The translations under genes were made by a program, and so were the position numbers. Below, in pieces: positions 4,005-49,514 of a stretch of 64,000 bases of DNA. Source of the DNA: Chloroflexota bacterium (lineage in GTDB: Bacteria; Chloroflexota; Anaerolineae; Anaerolineales; Villigracilaceae). The notes beneath the pieces were generated by a model that worked only from the letters and a program-made list of their open reading frames with translations, searched no databases and had not been told where the DNA came from. The stretch lies in contig JACPYX010000018.1 in assembly GCA_016195815.1 (NCBI GenBank), positions 62,001 to 126,000 of the forward strand. The letters run 5' to 3'. The first letter of the stretch is position 1; each line of letters begins with the position of its first letter.

Positions 4005-5708
4005 ATGAACATAAAATCAAAATTTAATCTTGTTACCCCGCGCCCGGAAGTGGAGATTTATCTCCCTGACGGGCGCGTTCTATCCGGCCCGCGCGGATCA
4101 CAAGTCGGCGGCTTTCTCAATGCCGTCGAATTTTCCGTGCCTGTTGTCGCCGCCATCGTGGGCGATGAACTGCGCGAGCTGACTTTTCCCATTGACATGG
4201 ACATGCCTGTCCGGCCTGTCACCATGTCCGACCCCGATGGTTCGCTCATCTATCGGCGTTCGCTAAACTTCCTGCTCGAAATGGCCTTTGCGGACCTCTT
4301 TCCCAAAGCGCGCTTGACGATTGACCATTCGATCTCGTTCGGTGGTTATTATTGCCAGGTGAGCGGGCGCAAGCCGTTATCTGAGAAAGAATTGGCCGCC
4401 CTAAAGTCCCGCATGAACGAACTCATCGCGGCCGATCTGCCTTTCGAAAAAAAAGAAGCTCCTCTGCAGTCTGCCATTGATTACTTCAAAGCCGTCGGCT
4501 ATGAAGATAAGGTCCATTTGCTCAGTTATCGCCGCAAAGATTATCTAACGCTTTATCGTCTCGGCCAGCGCATGGACTATCATCACGGCTACATGGTTCC
4601 GTCCACCGGCTACCTGAAATGGTTCGATCTCTTTGCAACCAATGGCGGTTTCACATTGCGTTTCCCGCGCCGCCACGCCGCGACCGAATTGCAACCGGTG
4701 GCTGAATATCCCAAATTGCTGGCGGCTTTCCGACAATATGGCAACTGGCTCACGCGTCTAGGCATTGATAGCGTTGGCTTGTTGAACGATGCCATTCAGG
4801 AAGGACGCGCCAGTGAGCTTGTGCTTGTCTCTGAAGCCCTGCATGAACAGAACGTGGCCGAAATTGCCGGTCAAATTGCCAAACGTGAATCGCAGATCGT
4901 TTTAATCGCAGGCCCTTCCTCTTCAGGCAAGACCACGTTCTCGCGCCGCCTCACGGTTCAACTTCTTGCGCTCGGCATTTCGCCATATCCACTCGAACTC
5001 GATCATTATTTCCTTGACCGCGATAAAACCCCGCCCGGCCCCGATGGCCTGCCCGATTTCGAATCTCTCGAAGCCATTGACCTGCCGTTGATCGCCGACC
5101 ATCTCGAACAATTGCTGGCGGGCAAAAAGGTCCAATTGCCGCGCTATAACTTCAAGACCGGACAACGCGAAGCGGGCGCGCACCTTCAATTACGACGCGG
5201 CCAGCCTGTCATCATGGAAGGCATTCACGGACTCGATCCCCGCCTCCTGCCCTCGACTTTGGCCGGGCGCGCGTTTAAGATCTATGCCTCGGCCCTGACC
5301 CAACTCAACCTCGACCGCCACAACCGCATTTCCACCACTGACACGCGCCTTATCCGGCGCATCGTGCGCGACGCGCGCGAGCGCGGCTACTCCGCCACAC
5401 AGACCATCTCACGCTGGGAATCTGTGCGGCGCGGCGAAAAGATACACATCTTCCCATACCAGGAAAACGCCGACGTAATGTTCAACTCGGCATTGGTCTA
5501 CGAATTATCCGCGCTCAAACTGCTGGCCGAGCCTTTGCTTCGACAAGTCCCGCACGGCACACCTGAATTCATCGAAGCCAAACGCCTGCTGGCTTTTCTC
5601 GAGTGGTTCCTGCCGATTGAGGCAGAACTTATTCCTGAGAATTCCATCGTACGCGAATTCATCGGCGGTTCGGTCTTGAAAGATTTCACGGTTTGGAAGA
5701 ATAAATGA
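4005..5708 (+). CDS. Nucleoside kinase with N-terminal TGS/ThrRS-like domain and C-terminal uridine kinase domain
   Basis: Two-part protein of 567 residues. The N-terminal half has a TGS-like segment (EIYLPDGRVLSG) and a threonyl-tRNA-synthetase second-domain-like region (IDHSISFGGYYC). The C-terminal half is a uridine kinase/phosphoribulokinase-type P-loop kinase: Walker A is IAGPSSSGKTTFSRR at about residue 300, followed by LELDHYFLDRDKTP and the GIHGLDPRL lid-side motif. This fused architecture is common in Firmicutes, Thermotogae and Chloroflexota and is annotated as nucleoside kinase. It acts in pyrimidine or purine nucleoside salvage; substrate preference cannot be read from sequence. 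It is a single-gene unit with its own candidate promoter and ends against a convergent ABC transporter gene. Confidence 0.88.
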   Translation: MNIKSKFNLVTPRPEVEIYLPDGRVLSGPRGSQVGGFLNAVEFSVPVVAAIVGDELRELTFPIDMDMPVRPVTMSDPDGSLIYRRSLNFLLEMAFADLFPKARLTIDHSISFGGYYCQVSGRKPLSEKELAALKSRMNELIAADLPFEKKEAPLQSAIDYFKAVGYEDKVHLLSYRRKDYLTLYRLGQRMDYHHGYMVPSTGYLKWFDLFATNGGFTLRFPRRHAATELQPVAEYPKLLAAFRQYGNWLTRLGIDSVGLLNDAIQEGRASELVLVSEALHEQNVAEIAGQIAKRESQIVLIAGPSSSGKTTFSRRLTVQLLALGISPYPLELDHYFLDRDKTPPGPDGLPDFESLEAIDLPLIADHLEQLLAGKKVQLPRYNFKTGQREAGAHLQLRRGQPVIMEGIHGLDPRLLPSTLAGRAFKIYASALTQLNLDRHNRISTTDTRLIRRIVRDARERGYSATQTISRWESVRRGEKIHIFPYQENADVMFNSALVYELSALKLLAEPLLRQVPHGTPEFIEAKRLLAFLEWFLPIEAELIPENSIVREFIGGSVLKDFTVWKNK

Positions 5709-5753
5709 AAAAGGATTCCTTTCGGACTGCATTATTATCTGGCAGTTAAACGA

Positions 5754-7730
5754 TCAAACCTTCTCTACCCTGAACTGCGTTTCATACAATTGACTGTATA
5801 ACCCTCGCGTCGCGAGCAGTTCCTCATGCGTGCCGCGTTCGACGATCCTGCCGCGATCCATCACCAAAATCAACTCCGCCGCTAATATCGTTGATAAACG
5901 ATGAGCAATTACAATCGAAGTTCGTCCTGCCATGACGCGCTTCAGCGCTTCTTGAATCAGGGCTTCGGATTCGCTGTCGAGCGAACTTGTGGCTTCGTCC
6001 AAAACCAAAATGCGCGGGTCTTTGAGAATTACGCGCGCCAGGGCGATGCGTTGTTTTTCGCCGCCGCTCAGCCGGTAGCCGCGCTCGCCGACAATGGTAT
6101 CGTAGCCGTCGGGCAGTTCCATGATGAAGTTGTGGATATTGGCCGCTTTGGCCGCGGCTTCGATCTCGGCCTGTGTTGCGTCGGGTTTGGCATAAATCAG
6201 ATTCGTGCGAATGGTATCGTGAAAAAGATAATTCTCCTGCGTCACCATGCCGATCTGCGCCGAAAGCGAGTCGAGCGTGACGCTGCGCAGATCATGGCCG
6301 TCAATGCGAATGACTCCGCTTGTCGGATCATATAATCTTGGGATGAGATACGTCAGCGTGGTTTTGCCGGCGCCCGATGGGCCGACTAGCGCGATTAACT
6401 TTCCAGCCGCGGCTTTAAACGAGATTCCTTCCAAAGCGACCTCGCGCGCCTGGGATATTGAGTCCGCTTCGGGGGAGTCTGATGCGTTCACTTTCTGACC
6501 GTTGACGGTGGAACGTTGACCGTCTGTGGTTTGCGGCCTGAGGCCTGAATCCGTTAAAGATAAAACTGCGCCGACGTTTTCCATCTTGCCGTAACGTTTG
6601 ACATCTTTCAGCAGTTTGGTGTCGTCCACTTTGTAATTGAAAGTGACATTCTCAAAAACAAGTTCGCCTTTTGAATCGCCGAGGGTTAGGGCATCGGGTT
6701 GTTCGATAATATCCTGCGGCAGATCAATGACTTCAAAAACGCGTTCGAAGCTGACCATGCTTGTGCTGAAATCAACCGGCGCGCCTGCCAGTCCCTGAAG
6801 CGTGCCATAAAGTTGACCGAGATACGAACCAAAGGCGACGATGGTGCCGATGGTGAATGCGCCCTGAATGACGTAATATCCGCCGAGACCGTAGACGAGC
6901 GCCGTGCCCACTGCGCTGACGAGTCCCATGATGACAAAGAAGCTTGAGCCAACCACCGCGCGGCGGACTCCGATATCACGCACGGCCGCGGCGCGCTGGC
7001 GAAAGCGGGCTTCTTCTTCGCGGGTGCGTCCGAATAATTTAACGAGCAGCGCGCCGCCGATGTTGAGAGTCTCGTTCATGTGGGCATTCATCTGTGCGTT
7101 GAGTTCCATTGATTTGCGGGCAATATCGCGCAGGACGTTGCCAAGCCTGCTGGCGACGAGGATGAAGAGCGGCAGGATCAGTACGCTGACGAGAGTCAGT
7201 TTCCATTGTAAGGTGAGCATCACGGCCAGCAGGGCGATCAACTGAATGATGTTGGTGATGATGTCCACGATGGTGCTGGAGATGGCATTCTGCGCGCCGA
7301 CCACGTCGTTGTTGAGGCGGCTCATCAATTCGCCCGATTTTGTGTTGGTGAAAAATCGAAGCGACATACCCTGGAGGCGGGAGAAGAGTGCCGAGCGCAG
7401 ATCGTAAATGACGCCTTCGCCAACGGTTGAGTTGAGCCGTCGCTGAACGACGCTGATGCCGCCTTCGAGCGCGGGAATGAAAAGCAACGCCACACCCAAC
7501 CAGATGAGGCGGGTCAGGTCTTTGGCAGGGATGACCACATCTATCATGTTGCGGAAGATGAGCGGGGTCAGCAGAGACAAGACCGTACTGAGCAGAATGG
7601 TTACCAGCATTCCCGTGATTTGAGTCCAGTAAGGTTTGGCGTAGTTGAGGACGCGCAATAATAATTCTTTGGTTACCCTGGGCTTTTGATCGCCCGAACG
7701 CATAGATGAAAACCAATTGTAACCGTGCAT
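5754..7730 (-). CDS. ABC transporter, fused permease-ATPase (MsbA/lipid or drug exporter type)
   Basis: Half-transporter of about 658 residues, with an N-terminal six-helix exporter membrane domain and a C-terminal nucleotide-binding domain. The NBD has Walker A GPSGAGKTT, Q-loop VTQENYLFHDT, signature LSGGEKQR, Walker B ILVLDEATSSLD and H-loop IAHRLST. The ATG at 7730 is preceded by GGGAGG; the longer frame to 7829 lacks such a site. Members export lipids, drugs or peptides as homodimers, and the substrate is unknown here. An insertion of about 55 residues, compositionally unlike its surroundings, splits the NBD between its first strand (FENVTFNYKVD) and the strand before Walker A (EVALEGISF). 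It corresponds to roughly bases 6441-6620. Confidence 0.9.
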   Translation of the reverse strand: MHGYNWFSSMRSGDQKPRVTKELLLRVLNYAKPYWTQITGMLVTILLSTVLSLLTPLIFRNMIDVVIPAKDLTRLIWLGVALLFIPALEGGISVVQRRLNSTVGEGVIYDLRSALFSRLQGMSLRFFTNTKSGELMSRLNNDVVGAQNAISSTIVDIITNIIQLIALLAVMLTLQWKLTLVSVLILPLFILVASRLGNVLRDIARKSMELNAQMNAHMNETLNIGGALLVKLFGRTREEEARFRQRAAAVRDIGVRRAVVGSSFFVIMGLVSAVGTALVYGLGGYYVIQGAFTIGTIVAFGSYLGQLYGTLQGLAGAPVDFSTSMVSFERVFEVIDLPQDIIEQPDALTLGDSKGELVFENVTFNYKVDDTKLLKDVKRYGKMENVGAVLSLTDSGLRPQTTDGQRSTVNGQKVNASDSPEADSISQAREVALEGISFKAAAGKLIALVGPSGAGKTTLTYLIPRLYDPTSGVIRIDGHDLRSVTLDSLSAQIGMVTQENYLFHDTIRTNLIYAKPDATQAEIEAAAKAANIHNFIMELPDGYDTIVGERGYRLSGGEKQRIALARVILKDPRILVLDEATSSLDSESEALIQEALKRVMAGRTSIVIAHRLSTILAAELILVMDRGRIVERGTHEELLATRGLYSQLYETQFRVEKV

Positions 7731-42397: not shown

Positions 42398-42913
42398 ATG
42401 GATTTCACAGCTTTAATCATCGGCCTTTTTGTGGGTTTAGTGCTTGGAGCATTAGGCCTTATTATTATTTACTTCATCATGCAAAAACAAATGTCCGATT
42501 TAAAATCAAAACATCAAAACGAAGTAGAAGCAGCACGGAAACAAAGTGTTGATCAAAGTCGTAATACTCTTAAAGGGAAAATGGCCGAACAAATGGCGCC
42601 TCTTCTTCCTGGATTTAAATTTCTTCCCGCAGACGCGAGATTTTTAGGAGACCCGGTTGATTATGTTGTGTTTCATGGATACACAGCCGCAAGAGACGAT
42701 GGAAAAGACCCAGATGCAATGGAAGTTGTAATTCTTGACATAAAACAAGGCGGCGCAACTCTTTCAAGATCTCAACGGGCAATTGCAAAAGCCATAGAAG
42801 ACGGCAGGATTCGATTTGATGTTGTGAGGATTTTTGACGATGGCGAAATAAAATCTCACACTTGGCATTCAAAGCAGAAAACGAACGTTCTCAGAAATAC
42901 AAATATAGAATAA
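42398..42913 (+). CDS. Membrane-anchored Holliday-junction-resolvase-like endonuclease (Endonuc_Holl)
   Basis: 171 residues. The N-terminal membrane helix (about 5-29, LIIGLFVGLVLGALGLIIIYFIM) is followed by a short helical linker and an Endonuc_Holl domain: LKGKMAEQMAPLLPGF, ADARFLGDPVDYVVFHGY and VVILDIKQGGATLSRSQR. The usual E-x-K of the PD-(D/E)XK core reads D-I-K, still compatible with metal binding. Function has not been shown for this family as far as I know. Its stop overlaps the DUF503 start by one base (TAATG). Confidence 0.82.
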   Translation: MDFTALIIGLFVGLVLGALGLIIIYFIMQKQMSDLKSKHQNEVEAARKQSVDQSRNTLKGKMAEQMAPLLPGFKFLPADARFLGDPVDYVVFHGYTAARDDGKDPDAMEVVILDIKQGGATLSRSQRAIAKAIEDGRIRFDVVRIFDDGEIKSHTWHSKQKTNVLRNTNIE

Positions 42914-43194
42914 TGCTCGCCACTCTGACCATTCACCTCCATCTCCCCGCCTGCGCCTCGCTCAAGGAAAAGCGCGGGCGGATCAAGCCGCTCATCTCGC
43001 GCCTGCACCGGGAGTTCAACATCTCAGTAGCGGAGATGGGTTTGCAGGACAAATGGCAGGAGGCGGTCATTGCTTGCGCGATGGTCAACAGCGACAAAGC
43101 GCACCTTGCGCGCTCCCTGCAGGCGGTGGCCAGGTGGGTGGAAGCCAACTGGCCGGACGGAATGGTCGCGGACGAAAAAATCGAATTCCTGTGA
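42913..43194 (+). CDS. DUF503 (YlxP-like) protein
   Basis: 93 residues, full length for DUF503. Conserved start LTIHLHLPACASLKEKRG and AEMGLQDKWQEAVIACAMVNSD are clear. YlxP sits in the nusA-infB-rbfA region of many bacteria and is suspected in ribosome maturation, but here it is coupled to the endonuclease-like gene instead. Function unknown. Confidence 0.88.
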   Translation: MLATLTIHLHLPACASLKEKRGRIKPLISRLHREFNISVAEMGLQDKWQEAVIACAMVNSDKAHLARSLQAVARWVEANWPDGMVADEKIEFL

Positions 43195-43457: not shown

Positions 43458-43850
43458 ATGACTGAACCTCTGCTGGTAGAGATCATCGCTTATGCGCCCA
43501 CAGCCTTTTATCACTGCACGCACTGCGAAGTGGCCTGGCGCGAAATGGGCGCGACCAATCGCATCCACGAAGAACAGATGGAGAGCAGTTTACCTAAAGA
43601 CCTCATCGCCGAATATCAGGTCGTATCTGATTGGGTGCAGAAAGCCTTTCGAGTCCACTGTGACCGGATCACCGTCAAAGTAATTGGTGCGGCCTCCCTT
43701 GAGGGCTTTTACAAATCACTTAAATATAATGCTCGCCGCTATCCTGCGATCATCGTTGACCAAAAAGCACGCTTCGTGGGAAGCCAAAGGTTGCAAGCTG
43801 CGTCCGATGAAATTGCCCGCCTGCTGGCCGGCCAAGTTGTGCCAGCATAA
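43458..43850 (+). CDS. Small protein of unknown function with thioredoxin-like pattern
   Basis: 130 residues. The beta-alpha order, a CTHC pair at about residues 20-23 (FYHCTHCEVAW) and YPAIIVDQKARFVG with a likely cis-proline suggest a thioredoxin-like fold, but I cannot name the family. The protein is cytoplasmic (no signal). It is the first gene after the terminator-controlled leader and precedes cstA by 119 bp, so the two probably share regulation. A redox or metal-binding role through CxxC is inference. Confidence 0.6.
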   Translation: MTEPLLVEIIAYAPTAFYHCTHCEVAWREMGATNRIHEEQMESSLPKDLIAEYQVVSDWVQKAFRVHCDRITVKVIGAASLEGFYKSLKYNARRYPAIIVDQKARFVGSQRLQAASDEIARLLAGQVVPA

Positions 43851-43969: not shown

Positions 43970-45880
43970 ATGAACACTCTCTGGGTCGTGATCATCGCAG
44001 CGGTCATCATCTATCTGATTTACAACTTCTATGCCAAGCCGATTGACCGCGAAGTCATTCAGGCAGACGTCAAGAAAGCGACGCCCGCCAAAATGTATAT
44101 GGACGGTGTGGACTTCATGCCCACCAACCGCAACGTGCTGTTTGGTTATCACTTCAAGTCCATCGCCGCAGCCGGACCAATAGTCGGCGTGATCACTGCC
44201 GCGAATCTGTGGGGCTGGCTGCCGGCCTTATTATGGCTGATGATCGGCGTGTCTTTCATCGGCTGGGCCAGCGACTACAGCGCCATTGTCGTGGCGGTCC
44301 GTAACGATGGCAACAGCCTGAGCGCCATCAGCCATAGACTGATTGCGCCGCGCACTCGAAGCATCATGTTCATATTTATTTTCTTCTACTTGCTGCTTAT
44401 CGCCGGTGCGTTTATGGGCATTATGGCATCTCTGCTGGCCGCTCGCCCTGATGTGCCATTCGGCATTATCATACTGGCCATCATGGGTTTCCTGGCTGGT
44501 CAAATGCTCTATCGTTGGAAAATGGATTTAATTCTGGTGACGGCGATTGTAGTGATCGTGACTTTGGCCGCCATGATCTTTGGTCCAATCGGAGCGACAC
44601 CGAAACTGGACACCAGCGGTAAACCCACAGGCGCAATAAGTTGGGTTGGCCCGATTAACAGCGCCATGGTGGCTTTCAATGGCGCCATTGATAAAATCAG
44701 CGGTGGAAACGCGTTGTTGACCGTCACTGATCCAACGGCAGCCGACCCGCGCGTTCCCGCTCCGGGCGCAGACGGCAAACGCGTAAGCACATCAGTCTAT
44801 GACGCCGCCACTGGCACAATCAAAACGCTTCCATCCTACCTGTTCTGGGTTTTGTTTCTGCTGGTTTTCGCCTACCTTTCAGCAACTTTACCGATCTGGC
44901 GATTCGCGCAGCCTGTCAACTACATCGGCTTCTGGATCACATTGTTGACAATTGGCTTTAGTGCGATTGGCGCTGTGTTGGCGCCCTTCATCAAACCGGC
45001 GATTGGCGCTTTCGCGCTCGACGCAGTCAAGCCGCTCACTTGGGTACCGGTAGCAAGTAAAGCCTGGCAACCGCTGTGGCCAATGCTGTTCGTAACCATC
45101 GCTTGCGGCGCAATCTCCGGCTGGCATGCTCTGTTCGGCTCGATTGGCACAGCCCGCCAGTTGGAATACGAAACTGATGCCTTGCCAGTTGGTGGCGGTG
45201 CGATGTTCACTGAGAATACACTGGCCCTGCTTTCACTGGTGGCCGTCTCCATCGCCGGAACAGGCGGTGGCGCAGGCCGCTTCGCAGCAGGCGTAGGAAG
45301 TTTGCTGACGGTGGTCTTCGGCGACGGTTTCAAGTTGTTGGGCACAGCGCTCGGCTTTGGCGCCTTCATGGTCATCGTATTGACAGTAACCCAACTGATT
45401 TTCCGAGTCATGCGCGTGACTTTGTCTGAGTGGGTCGGCGATGCACTCCCGGCGCTCAAAAACATGCACGTCTCCACTATTGTTTCAATGGTGCTGACTG
45501 TAGCCCTGGTATTGACCGGTACATGGGTCTACTTGTGGCAGATGTTCGGCGCAGCAAATCAGTTAATGGCAGCGCTTAGCCTGCTGATCGTCACGGTTTG
45601 GTTGAAGCAGCAGAAACGTAATCCGGCCTTTGTATTATGGCCGATGATCTTCATGTATATCACCACACTCGCGGCTACACTAATCACAGCTCGAAACCTT
45701 TATGTCACTATTGTCCCGCTGGGCGGCGTAGAGGCAGCCGGAGCTTGGGCGATGGTGATTATTTCCGCCCTGCTCTTTGTGGCCGCCATTCTGATTGGTT
45801 GGGATGGATATCAAGCTTATCAAGGTTTCGCCAAAGGCGGCGGAAAGGCCAAGAAAGCCGCCCCAGCCGCGGCAGATTAA
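43970..45880 (+). CDS. cstA: CstA-family carbon starvation/pyruvate or peptide transporter
   Basis: 636-residue membrane carrier with about 16 hydrophobic segments. CstA-family marks include YGYHFKSIAAAGPIVG-like FGYHFKSIAAAGPIVG near residue 60, ALLWLMIGVSFIGWASDYSAI, and CGAISGWHALFGSIGTARQLE. The N-terminal half is interrupted by a hydrophilic loop (about residues 210-275). Family members take up pyruvate or peptides under carbon limitation. The Shine-Dalgarno is AAAGGAGGAACC. It lies downstream of the thioredoxin-like gene and the riboswitch-like leader. Confidence 0.9.
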   Translation: MNTLWVVIIAAVIIYLIYNFYAKPIDREVIQADVKKATPAKMYMDGVDFMPTNRNVLFGYHFKSIAAAGPIVGVITAANLWGWLPALLWLMIGVSFIGWASDYSAIVVAVRNDGNSLSAISHRLIAPRTRSIMFIFIFFYLLLIAGAFMGIMASLLAARPDVPFGIIILAIMGFLAGQMLYRWKMDLILVTAIVVIVTLAAMIFGPIGATPKLDTSGKPTGAISWVGPINSAMVAFNGAIDKISGGNALLTVTDPTAADPRVPAPGADGKRVSTSVYDAATGTIKTLPSYLFWVLFLLVFAYLSATLPIWRFAQPVNYIGFWITLLTIGFSAIGAVLAPFIKPAIGAFALDAVKPLTWVPVASKAWQPLWPMLFVTIACGAISGWHALFGSIGTARQLEYETDALPVGGGAMFTENTLALLSLVAVSIAGTGGGAGRFAAGVGSLLTVVFGDGFKLLGTALGFGAFMVIVLTVTQLIFRVMRVTLSEWVGDALPALKNMHVSTIVSMVLTVALVLTGTWVYLWQMFGAANQLMAALSLLIVTVWLKQQKRNPAFVLWPMIFMYITTLAATLITARNLYVTIVPLGGVEAAGAWAMVIISALLFVAAILIGWDGYQAYQGFAKGGGKAKKAAPAAAD

Positions 45881-45952: not shown

Positions 45953-46603
45953 TCAGTTTTGCTCGCCAACGGCGCGGGCAAGATTGCGTAATGCTCCGAA
46001 ATACTGTACCGCATCTGTATTATGAGTGTCTGGGAAGGGAATGTGAATTTCGAGGTTGGGCAGATTCTTGCGCAGGCTCAATCGAAAGTAGCGCGGGGAG
46101 AGTTTCTGCATGGGTATGGAAAGTCGGTCAAGTGTTGTGGTTGCCACATCCATAAATCCCTTCGGAGCCATTAATTGCAAGCCGTGATAAGGTTTACTTT
46201 CCCAGCCGCGCGCTGCAACCTGACTGAGGGCAGCGCGTCCGCTCCAGGATTTTGGGTTGGCCAGTTCAAGGTCAAGGAACGGAGGCGAACTGAGGACAGC
46301 GCGAAAGATCAAAGTGTCGCGTCGGCCTTGGAAGGCAGAAACAATCATCATCCAGAAGACGTCACGAGGAGCCAATACCAGCAAAGTTTCAAGACGGCGG
46401 AACGGATTCTTCGCTTTGGCGATTGCCAATTCAGCCACTGAAGTCCCAAGCCAGCGAAATGTGGTGCGCGGACCAATATCTGGAAGGCCGGTTTGCATCC
46501 ACTTGAGAACAGCGTCGCCTCGGCGCAAATTATAAATCAAGCCAATGGCAAACCAACCCATGACAACTATGACGACAATGACCAGAATATATTGTGGATT
46601 CAC
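45953..46603 (-). CDS. Membrane-anchored protein of unknown function
   Basis: About 216 residues. One N-terminal membrane helix (YILVIVVIVVMGWFAIGLIY) is followed by a cytoplasmic-looking domain with the block GPRTTFRWLGTSVAELAI and repeated basic/aromatic motifs. No family recognised. The frame extends to an ATG at 46666, but that would overlap the divergent small gene; a GTG at 46603 with ACGAGGCGC upstream is preferred. Divergent placement next to the ArsA-like cassette suggests a possible functional link, unproven. Confidence 0.65.
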   Translation of the reverse strand: MNPQYILVIVVIVVMGWFAIGLIYNLRRGDAVLKWMQTGLPDIGPRTTFRWLGTSVAELAIAKAKNPFRRLETLLVLAPRDVFWMMIVSAFQGRRDTLIFRAVLSSPPFLDLELANPKSWSGRAALSQVAARGWESKPYHGLQLMAPKGFMDVATTTLDRLSIPMQKLSPRYFRLSLRKNLPNLEIHIPFPDTHNTDAVQYFGALRNLARAVGEQN

Positions 46604-46645
46604 GCTGCGCCTCGTTAATCGTCCAATGTTAACGGTGAGTATAAT

Positions 46646-46945
46646 ATGAAACACGATGAAGTTCAATCAAGAGAAAAGCCAAACCGCTGGCAGGCCATTC
46701 GGGATTTTATGTATGGAATGTTTGGAATGGAAATCGCCAGTCATGCCATCGAAATGCGCGCGAGCATGGAGAGTTTGTTCATGTTAACAACGGTCGGAGA
46801 TATGATCGGGATTCCTGTTTTACCCCCCTACTACAGTTTGCGTTTGTTGCCTTTTGTATTACCCCAGATCGCAACCTGGAAACGCCGCGTTCTGCGTGAA
46901 CGCGAATTTACCGATGAGCACGATTATCACCTGGACGGACTTTAG
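46646..46945 (+). CDS. Small membrane-type protein 1 of the ArsA-like cassette
   Basis: 99 residues. It shares with the genes at 46991 and 49251 the pattern: FMYGMF...ASMESLF, then the hydrophobic run MLTTVGDMIGIPVLPPYYSLRLLPFVLPQI, then the basic end WKRRVLRERE. The hydrophobic region with two prolines may form a membrane hairpin or peripheral anchor, followed by a positively charged tail. No known domain. It heads a same-strand run of five genes including two ArsA/GET3-type ATPases, and is the most divergent copy (longest tail). Confidence 0.8.
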   Translation: MKHDEVQSREKPNRWQAIRDFMYGMFGMEIASHAIEMRASMESLFMLTTVGDMIGIPVLPPYYSLRLLPFVLPQIATWKRRVLREREFTDEHDYHLDGL

Positions 46946-46990: not shown

Positions 46991-47263
46991 ATGAGTCAAG
47001 AAACCCCTGAGAAAAAAAGTTTCTGGCAGAACGCGAAGGAAGTGCTCTACGGCATGGCTTCACACGATATGAGCCGCTATGCCCTGCGGACGCGCGCCAG
47101 CATGGAGCACCTTTTCATTTTGATCACGATGGGCGACATGATCGGAGTTCCGATCCTGCCGCCATATTACAGCCTGCGTCTGCTGCCCTATGTGGTTCCG
47201 CAAATCTCGACCTGGAAGCGGCGCCTGCTTCGCGAGAAAGACGTATCCGACGCCATGTTTTAG
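46991..47263 (+). CDS. Small membrane-type protein 2 of the ArsA-like cassette
   Basis: 90 residues, paralogue of the 46646 and 49251 products. An N-terminal amphipathic part, FWQNAKEVLYGMASHDMSR, is followed by SMEHLFILITMGDMIGVPI, LPPYYSLRLLPYVVPQI and WKRRLLREKDVSDAMF. It ends 9 bp before the first ATPase gene with AGGAGATTCC between, so the two are co-translated. The C-terminal hydrophobic-plus-basic plan is what GET3-type ATPases recognise in clients, which makes it a candidate client or effector (inference). Confidence 0.82.
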   Translation: MSQETPEKKSFWQNAKEVLYGMASHDMSRYALRTRASMEHLFILITMGDMIGVPILPPYYSLRLLPYVVPQISTWKRRLLREKDVSDAMF

Positions 47264-47272
47264 GAGATTCCA

Positions 47273-48247
47273 ATGTCGCTAAAACAAATCTTTGAAGAAC
47301 ATCCCGAGCGCCGCTACATTATGTTCGGCGGAAAGGGCGGGCTGGGCAAGACTACATTTTCAGCGGCCACCGCTTACTGGCTCGCCAAACAGGGCAAGAA
47401 AGTGCTGGTGTTTTCCGTTGACCCGCAAGCAAGTCTTTCGGATATTTTCCAGAAAGATATCTTTGGAAAAGGCCCAGTCAAGATCATGGATAATTTGTGG
47501 GCGCAGGAGATTGACGCCGACTCGCACATCAAGAATTATCAGAATGAAATCCGCAAGAAGATTTTGGATATGTACGGTTTCGAGCAGGTGCCTGAAGAAA
47601 TCGAGCAGTACATCCAGGCCGCTTCCGCCGAACCCGCTATGGAAGAGAGTGCCATCTTCGACGCAGTGGTGGATATCGTGATCGGCGGCGAATATGATTA
47701 CTACATTTACGATCTCGTCCCGCTCGGCCATGCGCTTTATTATTTGAGTATGGCAAAAGTGTACGACGAGTGGATCAACAAGATCACCAAATTGCGCGAA
47801 GAGATGCGCGAGTACGAGGAGATGGTCTCACGACTTAAGCGTCAGAAGGAAACGGAGGAAGACCAGATACTCACAGAACTTCAGTACATCCGCACGCGCA
47901 TTAACGCTTCGTCGAGTATCCTGACCGACAAGGAAAAGACCGGCTTTTTCTTTGTCGTCATCCCCGAAGAAATGATCCTGATTGACACCAGCAAGGCGGC
48001 GGAATTGTTCGCCAAGTTTGACGTGCCAATTATGGGCTACGTGGTTAATCGCGTTGTGCCGCGCGAACTGCTCAAGGAAAACATCCCATCCTACTTGAAG
48101 AACCGCATCGGTATGCAAGACAAATACCTGGCTCAGATTAATACCATGTTTGGTCAACAGGTGGCGGCGCATGTCCCTGAATTGGAACGCGATGTGACCG
48201 GCTTGGATATGATCAAGCAACTTGCAGAAATCATGTACGGGAAGTAG
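47273..48247 (+). CDS. ArsA/GET3-like ATPase A, with altered DTAPTGH motif
   Basis: 324-residue SIMIBI-class ATPase of the ArsA/TRC40 family. The deviant Walker A is FGGKGGLGKTTFSA (K21 signature lysine, K26). Switch I is SVDPQASLSD, with the catalytic-type Asp50 conserved. The switch II/ligand motif, normally DTAPTGHTLR, is YDLVPLGHALYYL, so T-A-P is lost but GH is retained. A coiled, charged insertion (residues 166-205) lies in the client-binding region. It is not an arsenite pump subunit: no arsB partner is beside it. It is immediately followed by a second, complementary ATPase. Confidence 0.88.
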   Translation: MSLKQIFEEHPERRYIMFGGKGGLGKTTFSAATAYWLAKQGKKVLVFSVDPQASLSDIFQKDIFGKGPVKIMDNLWAQEIDADSHIKNYQNEIRKKILDMYGFEQVPEEIEQYIQAASAEPAMEESAIFDAVVDIVIGGEYDYYIYDLVPLGHALYYLSMAKVYDEWINKITKLREEMREYEEMVSRLKRQKETEEDQILTELQYIRTRINASSSILTDKEKTGFFFVVIPEEMILIDTSKAAELFAKFDVPIMGYVVNRVVPRELLKENIPSYLKNRIGMQDKYLAQINTMFGQQVAAHVPELERDVTGLDMIKQLAEIMYGK

Positions 48248-48256
48248 GAGGACGCC

Positions 48257-49240
48257 GTGACAACCTCAATTGAAACCTCCATGAAAAAATATGTCAGCGA
48301 TCACCAGCGCTTGAAGTACCTGTTCTTCGGCGGCAAGGGCGGTGTGGGTAAGACCACGCTGGCAGGCGCGACAGCCATCTGGCTGGCGAAGCAGGGCATG
48401 CGCGTCATGCTGGCATCCACTAATCCCGTCCACAGCCTGAGCGGATTGTTGGGACAAAACGTCTTCGGCCAGCCGACAGCGGTTAACGGCGTCCCAAATC
48501 TATGGGCATATGAAATTGATACAAAAGAGACCATCGAACGTTCCAAGCAGGAAATCCGTGACAAGATTCAATGGTTCTTAAAGTTTGCGGATATTTCCAC
48601 CAAAGCCGAAGAGTTCGTCGAATCAGCCACAATGAATCCGGCCTTCGAGGAATCGGCCATGTTCGAAAACATGGTGGACTTGATGATAGGCGGCGAATAT
48701 GACGTGTATGTTTTCGACACCGCCCCGACCGCTAATGCCCGCCGTCTGTTAGGTATGTCTCAAGTCTATTCGTTGTGGGTCAACAAGATGCTCAAGAGCC
48801 GCGATGAAGCCCGCTCCCTGCGCGAATTGCTGTCTTTCACCAAGAAGAAGGAAAAAGATCCGCTCCTGGATTACCTGGTCGCCTTCCGCGACCGCATGGG
48901 TAAGGCGCGCGAAATGCTGACCGATCCCGCTCAGACCGCCTTCTTCTTTGTCACCCTGCCCGAGGCTCTGCCGATTGCGGTCATCACCCGCTTCATCGGC
49001 TGGTTCCACGACTTTGGCATTCCCGTCGGCGGCGTGATCGTTAACATGATCATTGATAAAAAACAGGTCAACAACAAATCGCCCGACTTCGTCAAGAACC
49101 GCGTCGCCATGCAGGACCGCTACATGACCGAGGTCTGGGAGAAGTTCGACGGCATGGTGCGCGCCAACCTGCCGCTCTACGAAACGGAAGTACGCGGCCT
49201 GGAAACACTCAACACTATGGCAAACAACCTGTTTGTCTGA
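48257..49240 (+). CDS. ArsA/GET3-like ATPase B, with switch-I Asp replaced by Asn
   Basis: 327 residues, GTG start after GGAGGACGCC, 9 bp from ATPase A. The deviant Walker A is FGGKGGVGKTTLAG (K27, K32). Switch I is STNPVHSLSG: Asn56 stands where GET3 has the catalytic Asp (yeast Asp57, whose Asn mutant binds but does not hydrolyse ATP). The switch II motif is FDTAPTANARRLL, so DTAPT is intact but GH is not. ATPases A and B have therefore lost opposite elements, pointing to a heterodimer with one competent site. Likely cytosolic with membrane-protein clients. Confidence 0.88.
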   Translation: MTTSIETSMKKYVSDHQRLKYLFFGGKGGVGKTTLAGATAIWLAKQGMRVMLASTNPVHSLSGLLGQNVFGQPTAVNGVPNLWAYEIDTKETIERSKQEIRDKIQWFLKFADISTKAEEFVESATMNPAFEESAMFENMVDLMIGGEYDVYVFDTAPTANARRLLGMSQVYSLWVNKMLKSRDEARSLRELLSFTKKKEKDPLLDYLVAFRDRMGKAREMLTDPAQTAFFFVTLPEALPIAVITRFIGWFHDFGIPVGGVIVNMIIDKKQVNNKSPDFVKNRVAMQDRYMTEVWEKFDGMVRANLPLYETEVRGLETLNTMANNLFV

Positions 49241-49250
49241 TACGCGCGGC

Positions 49251-49514
49251 ATGAAAAACGAATCATCGCATCCCGTCCGCGCTTTCAGAGAAATTATGTA
49301 TGGCATGGCGATCCACGATCAGGTGCGGACCTTAGCGCGACAGCGCGGCAGTCTGGAGCATCTCTTCGTATTGATCAGCTTTGGCGACCTGCTCGGCGTG
49401 CCCATCCTGCCGCCGTATTACAGTATGCGCTTGTTGCCGTTCGTTGTTCCACTCATCAACAACTGGAAGCGGCGCATGTTGCGGGAACGGGATTTGATGG
49501 ACGCGATTTTCTAA
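49251..49514 (+). CDS. Small membrane-type protein 3 of the ArsA-like cassette
   Basis: 87 residues, paralogous to 46646 and 46991: FREIMYGMAIHDQ, GSLEHLFVLISFGDLLGVPI, LPPYYSMRLLPFVVPLI and WKRRMLRERDLMDAIF. The ATG at 49251 is preferred; a TTG at 49233 would overlap ATPase B. No strong Shine-Dalgarno is seen, so translation may be coupled to ATPase B. It closes the symmetrical small-ATPase-ATPase-small arrangement. Confidence 0.8.
   Translation: MKNESSHPVRAFREIMYGMAIHDQVRTLARQRGSLEHLFVLISFGDLLGVPILPPYYSMRLLPFVVPLINNWKRRMLRERDLMDAIF

Follow-up and report, generated by a model that had tools for sequence, protein, structure and literature searches.

Two neighboring genes in the 64,000-nt stretch of Chloroflexota DNA that we analyzed as a whole (hereafter the window) encode ATPases of the ArsA/Get3 family, designated here ATPase A and ATPase B, whose catalytic signatures differ from each other in a fashion that is conserved among their relatives. 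The overall best explanation for this arrangement, and one that we regard as probable, is that A and B form an obligate asymmetric dimer that arose from a duplicated, canonical single-gene ATPase linked to the transporter CstA. The two genes are part of a cluster with the order thioredoxin-like gene, cstA, a divergently oriented gene for a 237-amino-acid protein, c1, c2, ATPase A, ATPase B and c3, whose positions in the window are as follows:

43458..43850, plus strand: thioredoxin-like protein, 130 amino acids, CTHC motif; weak Pfam matches to DUF1525 and Thioredoxin_3, below cut-off
43970..45880, plus strand: CstA, putative carbon-starvation transporter (PF02554, E 4e-101)
45953..46666, minus strand: 237-amino-acid protein with one N-terminal membrane helix and a cytosolic domain; predicted CCDC47-like fold
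46646..46945, plus strand: c1, paralogue of c2 (NF041419, E 3.7e-7, below cut-off)
46991..47263, plus strand: c2, CC-star-like, 90 amino acids, the most conserved small partner (NF041419, E 1.8e-8, below cut-off)
47273..48247, plus strand: ATPase A, 324 amino acids, ArsA/Get3 family, Asp50, DLVPLGH; predicted hydrolyzing site
48257..49240, plus strand: ATPase B, 327 amino acids, Asn56, DTAPTAN; predicted ATP-binding, hydrolysis-poor site
49251..49514 (approximate), plus strand: c3, paralogue of c2 (NF041419, E 2.8e-8, below cut-off)

The open reading frame of c3 extends from a TTG codon at 49233, the ATG at 49251 being the likelier start. The thioredoxin-like gene adjoins cstA, was found in 36-37 loci, and stays next to cstA even in genomes where the ATPase pair lies elsewhere. 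Just upstream of the cluster, a gene for a nuclease related to Holliday-junction resolvases (PF10107; 42398-42913, plus strand) overlaps a DUF503 gene (42862-43194, plus strand).

Both ATPases are clear members of the TRC40/GET3/ArsA family (TIGR00345; 235.7 bits for A and 232.7 bits for B at a cut-off of 135), and they are the only full-length PF02374-type proteins of the source genome, in which four further PF02374 matches are short and weak. Neither sequence contains a single cysteine, and the CxxC zinc motif found at the dimer interface of Get3 is consequently missing from both. The region corresponding to the client insert of Get3 is 64% charged in A and 58% charged in B, as compared with 36-38% in two archaeal Get3 proteins; A and B hence lack the hydrophobic client insert of TRC40. 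Three more specific assignments were considered and rejected. The profile for fused ArsA (TIGR04291) gave 113 and 125 bits against a cut-off of 650, and the ArsA cysteines C113, C172, and C422 are missing; BagA and BagB scored at most about 50 bits against NCBIfam equivalog cut-offs of 400 and 521, respectively; and the profile for Get3d/NosAFP (NF050088) gave 53 and 81 bits against 325, with both A and B ending with the ATPase domain and hence without the C-terminal alpha-crystallin domain.

To assess the catalytic signatures, we gathered relatives of A and B in 301 Chloroflexota genomes and at the best 80 loci of a scan over 84,980 species genomes; after removal of duplicates, 99 sequences of A and 98 of B, representing about 98 distinct tandem pairs, were used to tally residues. 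Most of the best 80 loci stem from Chloroflexota, while other records are labelled Acidobacteria, Gemmatimonadetes, Actinobacteria, Deltaproteobacteria, and others, labels that may be wrong since many of these records are metagenome bins. As an earlier, sequence-only reading of this DNA had stated, A carries SVDPQ with Asp50 and DLVPLGH (beginning at Asp147), and B carries STNP with Asn56 and DTAPT, here the start of DTAPTAN (beginning at Asp154). Asp50 of A and Asn56 of B both align with the switch-I aspartate of Get3 and ArsA (STDPAHSL in relatives; TTDPA in ArsA). This aspartate is kept in 97/97 A sequences, and Asn is present in 96/97 B sequences, the lone exception being a His (a single row, taken as aligned). 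Conservation to this extent rules out that Asn56 is a local variant, and the Asp in relatives of B that would have spoken against the sequence-only reading was not encountered.

The switch-II sequences are equally constant. All 99 A sequences follow the pattern D-L/M-V/P-P-L/F-G-H (DLVPLGH in 95, DMPPFGH in 4). Asp147 and His153 are each present in 99/99 sequences; A thus keeps Asp147, Pro150, Gly152, and His153, and differs at three non-acidic positions. In B, D-T-A and A-N were found in 96/96 sequences (DTAPTAN in 92, DTAAVAN in 4), the switch-II Gly-His being replaced by A159 and N160. The second P-loop Thr has become Val or Ala in 93/97 B sequences, although B of the window itself keeps Thr. 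A retains both P-loop lysines and both threonines; B retains the Mg-site Asp154, both lysines, and Thr33.

The consequences of an Asn at the switch-I position, which the sequence-only reading had called a hydrolysis-dead form, are known from Get3 and TRC40: the yeast Get3 D57N variant binds ATP without hydrolyzing it and serves to trap the ATP-bound state (PMC12506534), and TRC40 D74N behaves alike (PMC6633398). By homology, B should therefore be hydrolysis-poor, while A, in which the aspartates of both switches, the Pro, Gly, and His of switch II, and the P-loop Lys and Thr residues are intact, should be hydrolysis-competent. Since B has in addition exchanged GH for AN and usually the P-loop Thr for Val or Ala, the degeneracy lies mainly in B; judged by these residues, B is the degenerate partner, and not both subunits. 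The idea that the two proteins have suffered complementary catalytic losses consequently did not hold, because A keeps both the catalytic and the Mg-site Asp. Its altered switch-II residues might nevertheless impair A as well, a point that counts against our preferred explanation.

In a maximum-likelihood tree, A and B are each monophyletic and form sister clades (support 100/97). Their nearest sampled neighbors, joined with a support of only 87/80, are single ATPases of Paracoccus, Pseudochrobactrum, and Cytobacillus, whose genes immediately follow cstA and a CC-star gene; owing to long branches, the exact position of these single ATPases is less sure than the sisterhood of A and B. The single CstA-linked ATPases are canonical (STDPAHNL and DTAPTGHT), which places the split of the signature after the duplication. 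It would thus appear from the sequences that a canonical, presumably symmetric ancestor was duplicated and that the copies then divided its signature. Single-ATPase CstA loci were recovered in a search of plasmids, on which no c2 homologues were found.

A precedes B, and is adjacent to it, in nearly every locus in which both genes are complete, with a median gap of about 18 bases (the start of B being estimated at a fixed length). In two loci (L117 and L141), the genes stand apart owing to an insert without relation to them, about 0.9 kb long; the one in L117 (about 4973-5861) contains an open reading frame resembling a nucleotidyltransferase, possibly of a MntA/HepT-type pair. Pairwise distances of A and B are correlated (0.87; 46 loci), in part a reflection of shared species history. 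In the window, A and B lie in one frame, a single TAG and three codons apart, and we modelled them with AlphaFold2 as one joined protein in which the TAG was read as Gln (15 paired rows; mean pLDDT 71, pTM 0.57). Superposed on ArsA, the joined model matched 518 residues of the E. coli protein (rmsd 3.3, Z 27.6) and 539 of the L. ferriphilum protein. It agrees, with moderate confidence, with a face-to-face A-B dimer, although AlphaFold2 may echo known ArsA structures. Taken together, the tandem pairing, the sister clades, and the canonical single ATPases make asymmetric pairing the best explanation; a heterodimer of A and B appears quite likely to us, and that it possesses one competent site, fairly probable. 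The proposal of the sequence-only reading, an obligate asymmetric heterodimer with a single active site, is supported in part: it is kept as the probable reading, but not by way of complementary losses.

Together with CstA and CC-star-like proteins, the ATPase pair makes up a more extensive module, part of which has been described before. CstA is encoded upstream on the same strand in 48/59 loci with enough flanking sequence. Among the 301 Chloroflexota genomes, 36 contain the pair, 37 contain CstA, and 34 contain both (hypergeometric p 5e-39, with genomes treated as unrelated). The two genomes with the pair only are incomplete assemblies; among those with CstA only, a contig end after cstA cuts the cassette in one (G171), and in two others (G124 and G204) CstA is less similar to that of the window and no cassette is nearby. 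The c family occurs in 36/301 genomes, all of them carriers of the pair if G171 with its cut contig is counted. The order c-c-A-B prevails in most of the best 80 loci, and c3 is found mainly in close relatives.

With 30-34 bits against the cory-CC-star profile NF041419 (E 4e-7 to 2e-8; cut-off 80), the c proteins appear to be distant relatives of cory-CC-star, a name that we found in no publication. Operons of CstA, CstX, and ArsA whose products co-evolve were described earlier (Castillo and Saier, 2010; PMC2963123), the only study we found that treats both CstX and CstA. It describes CstX as a protein of about 90 amino acids with a single membrane segment, records two instances in which a CstA operon holds a pair of adjacent ArsA genes, notes Asp-to-Asn exchanges at the SXD motif in single-domain ArsA homologues, and proposes that these ArsA homologues, suggested to be homodimers, energize CstA (PMC2963123). 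The c proteins have a moderately hydrophobic segment, and their size and position fit CstX; matched in this way by description only, c2 is probably CstX. In a haloarchaeal locus (L179, 5806-6437), the two genes after arsA are annotated as halo-CC-star (HcsL and HcsS), an annotation suggesting that CC-star proteins accompany ArsA-type ATPases in arsenic operons too.

The AlphaFold2 model of the divergently encoded 237-amino-acid protein (pLDDT 92, pTM 0.84) found its top structural match in chain 4 of the multipass translocon 7tm3 (Z 16.1, rmsd 3.1, 212 residues including the membrane helix), followed by 9i78 chain 4 (Z 13.9), 6w6l chain 7 (Z 10.3), and mycobacterial TtfA (Z 9.9), with all others below 8. 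We take 7tm3 chain 4 and 6w6l chain 7 to be CCDC47. In the case of TtfA, a related fold likewise accompanies a bacterial transporter. The matched stretch of 9i78 chain 4 comprises residues 76-367, in agreement with the CCDC47 residues 76-370 reported by the authors of that structure (PMC12572126), which supports the identity of the chain. In its predicted structure, the 237-amino-acid protein displays both features by which we recognize the CCDC47 fold, a membrane helix and a cytosolic globular domain. Only one of 61 family members matches the Pfam CCDC47 profile (PF07946; E 0.14), and a search of solved structures with the sequence profile of the family gave no match. Since prokaryotes have been stated to be without components of the PAT complex, to which CCDC47 belongs (Nature, 2022; PMC9630114), this protein may possibly be the first prokaryotic relative of CCDC47; a common fold is no proof of a common function.

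The gene family of this protein is present in 31/301 genomes, 30 of which also carry the ATPase pair, in some of them unlinked (p 3e-34, with genomes treated as unrelated), and it was absent from the single-ATPase CstA loci that we saw. By description only, the gene fits archaeal CstY, which has one membrane segment (PMC2963123), in size and position. A homologue at 5015-5830 of L190, in a genome (G319) without the ATPase pair, CstA, and the small proteins, adjoins a membrane-protein-like gene and a prenyltransferase-like gene.

Of the mechanisms considered, we favor one in which the site of A, together with the signature lysine contributed in trans by B, would hydrolyze ATP, while the site of B would keep ATP bound and hydrolyze it poorly, acting as a holding or timing site comparable to that of degenerate-site ABC exporters. 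The pair would dock on the small CC-star/CstX-like, membrane-type adaptors, and through them would drive or gate CstA as ArsA does ArsB. That driving or gating transport is the purpose of the pair is a tentative proposal that invites slightly more doubt than belief. CstA-type transporters of E. coli are known without such an ATPase, which counts against it, and the CCDC47-like neighbor points to membrane-protein assembly rather than to transport.

The main rival explanation builds on that neighbor. The cluster could be a biogenesis machine for CstA, in which the Get3-like pair and the CCDC47-like and CC-star-like proteins help to insert or fold this many-helix protein, with release timed by the asymmetric ATPase. 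Membership of A and B in the Get3 family, the match to CCDC47 including its membrane helix, and the near restriction of the CCDC47-like gene to carriers of the pair, even where unlinked, all favor it; the charged client-insert regions, the missing CxxC, the absence of the gene from single-ATPase CstA loci, and the lone Pfam match weigh against it, and we consider it rather unlikely. That A and B could be an arsenite-pump ATPase divided into two genes was rejected, despite the ArsA profile matches and the ArsA-like fold of the joined model: without cysteines there is no arsenite site, which contradicts such a pump, and near the locus no arsB, acr3, or arsR was seen, with CstA there instead.

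Two further alternatives concern the ATPases themselves, and we judge both to be improbable. A and B could form separate homodimers, A as a slow ATPase and B as an ATP-binding regulator, given that each has a full Get3 fold with both P-loop lysines and that Get3 proteins are normally homodimeric; their tandem co-occurrence and parallel divergence, and the joined model, predicted to fold as an A-B pseudo-dimer, argue otherwise, although homodimers could possibly exist alongside the heterodimer. Both sites could also hydrolyze ATP, if Asn56 were compensated in B or if the motif shift only tuned the rate. B keeps Asp154, both lysines, and Thr33, and NosGet3d, with Glu at the switch-I position, still has ATPase activity, albeit lower (PMC10248533); the trapping of Get3 D57N in the ATP state and the further changes in B, GH to AN and Thr to Val, speak against this.

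A natural, family-wide ArsA/Get3 dimer in which one of the two sites is apparently inactive, as the asymmetric pairing of A and B implies, renders it directly testable whether this ATPase family needs one or two hydrolysis events per cycle. The cluster also suggests that CstA-type transporters have an ATPase partner, and it yields a first candidate CCDC47-like protein from bacteria, although prokaryotes have none according to the literature. A far-reaching and, in our estimate, doubtful extension is that the cluster constitutes a dedicated ATP-driven bacterial module for assembling or running a single transporter with many helices, made up of a Get3-like heterodimer that is obligate and asymmetric, a genuine relative of CCDC47, and small hydrophobic partners; it would then be a prokaryotic counterpart, and possibly an ancestor, of the eukaryotic GET/PAT machinery.

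The contrast that the sequence-only reading had drawn with symmetric ArsA/GET3 dimers is overstated, since ArsA itself is a two-domain pseudo-dimer, BagA and BagB are paired, and adjacent ArsA pairs are known (PMC2963123). The CstA-CstX-ArsA systems likewise unite CstA, a small protein of about 90 amino acids, and a single-domain ArsA homologue in one operon, but homodimers were suggested for them, and their description did not assign the Asn to a particular partner (PMC2963123). What is added here, over about 100 pairs, is the division of both switch motifs between the partners (Asp versus Asn in switch I, and the differing switch II), together with several small proteins and the CCDC47-like gene. 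Mycobacterial BagA/BagB (Rv3679-Rv3680; PDB 6bs3) are also encoded by two adjacent Get3-like genes and form a solved protein complex, whereas A and B stay far under the cut-offs of the BagA and BagB profiles; we know of no link between BagA/BagB and CstA. ArsA of E. coli and L. ferriphilum, to which the joined model matches over its full length, has two unlike ATPase halves that act as a pseudo-dimer on a transporter, but it is one fused gene product with DTAPTGH in both halves and three metal-binding cysteines. Get3/TRC40 and Get3d share with A and B the single-domain fold and the P-loop with its signature lysine, and differ in being homodimers with the canonical Asp in both subunits and a hydrophobic client insert; neither the CxxC of Get3 nor the C-terminal alpha-crystallin domain of Get3d is present in A and B. 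Degenerate-site ABC exporters (PMC7756269), although their ATPase family is unrelated, combine one hydrolyzing with one ATP-holding site and conserve this degeneracy, and they serve as our working analogy for the A-B pair.
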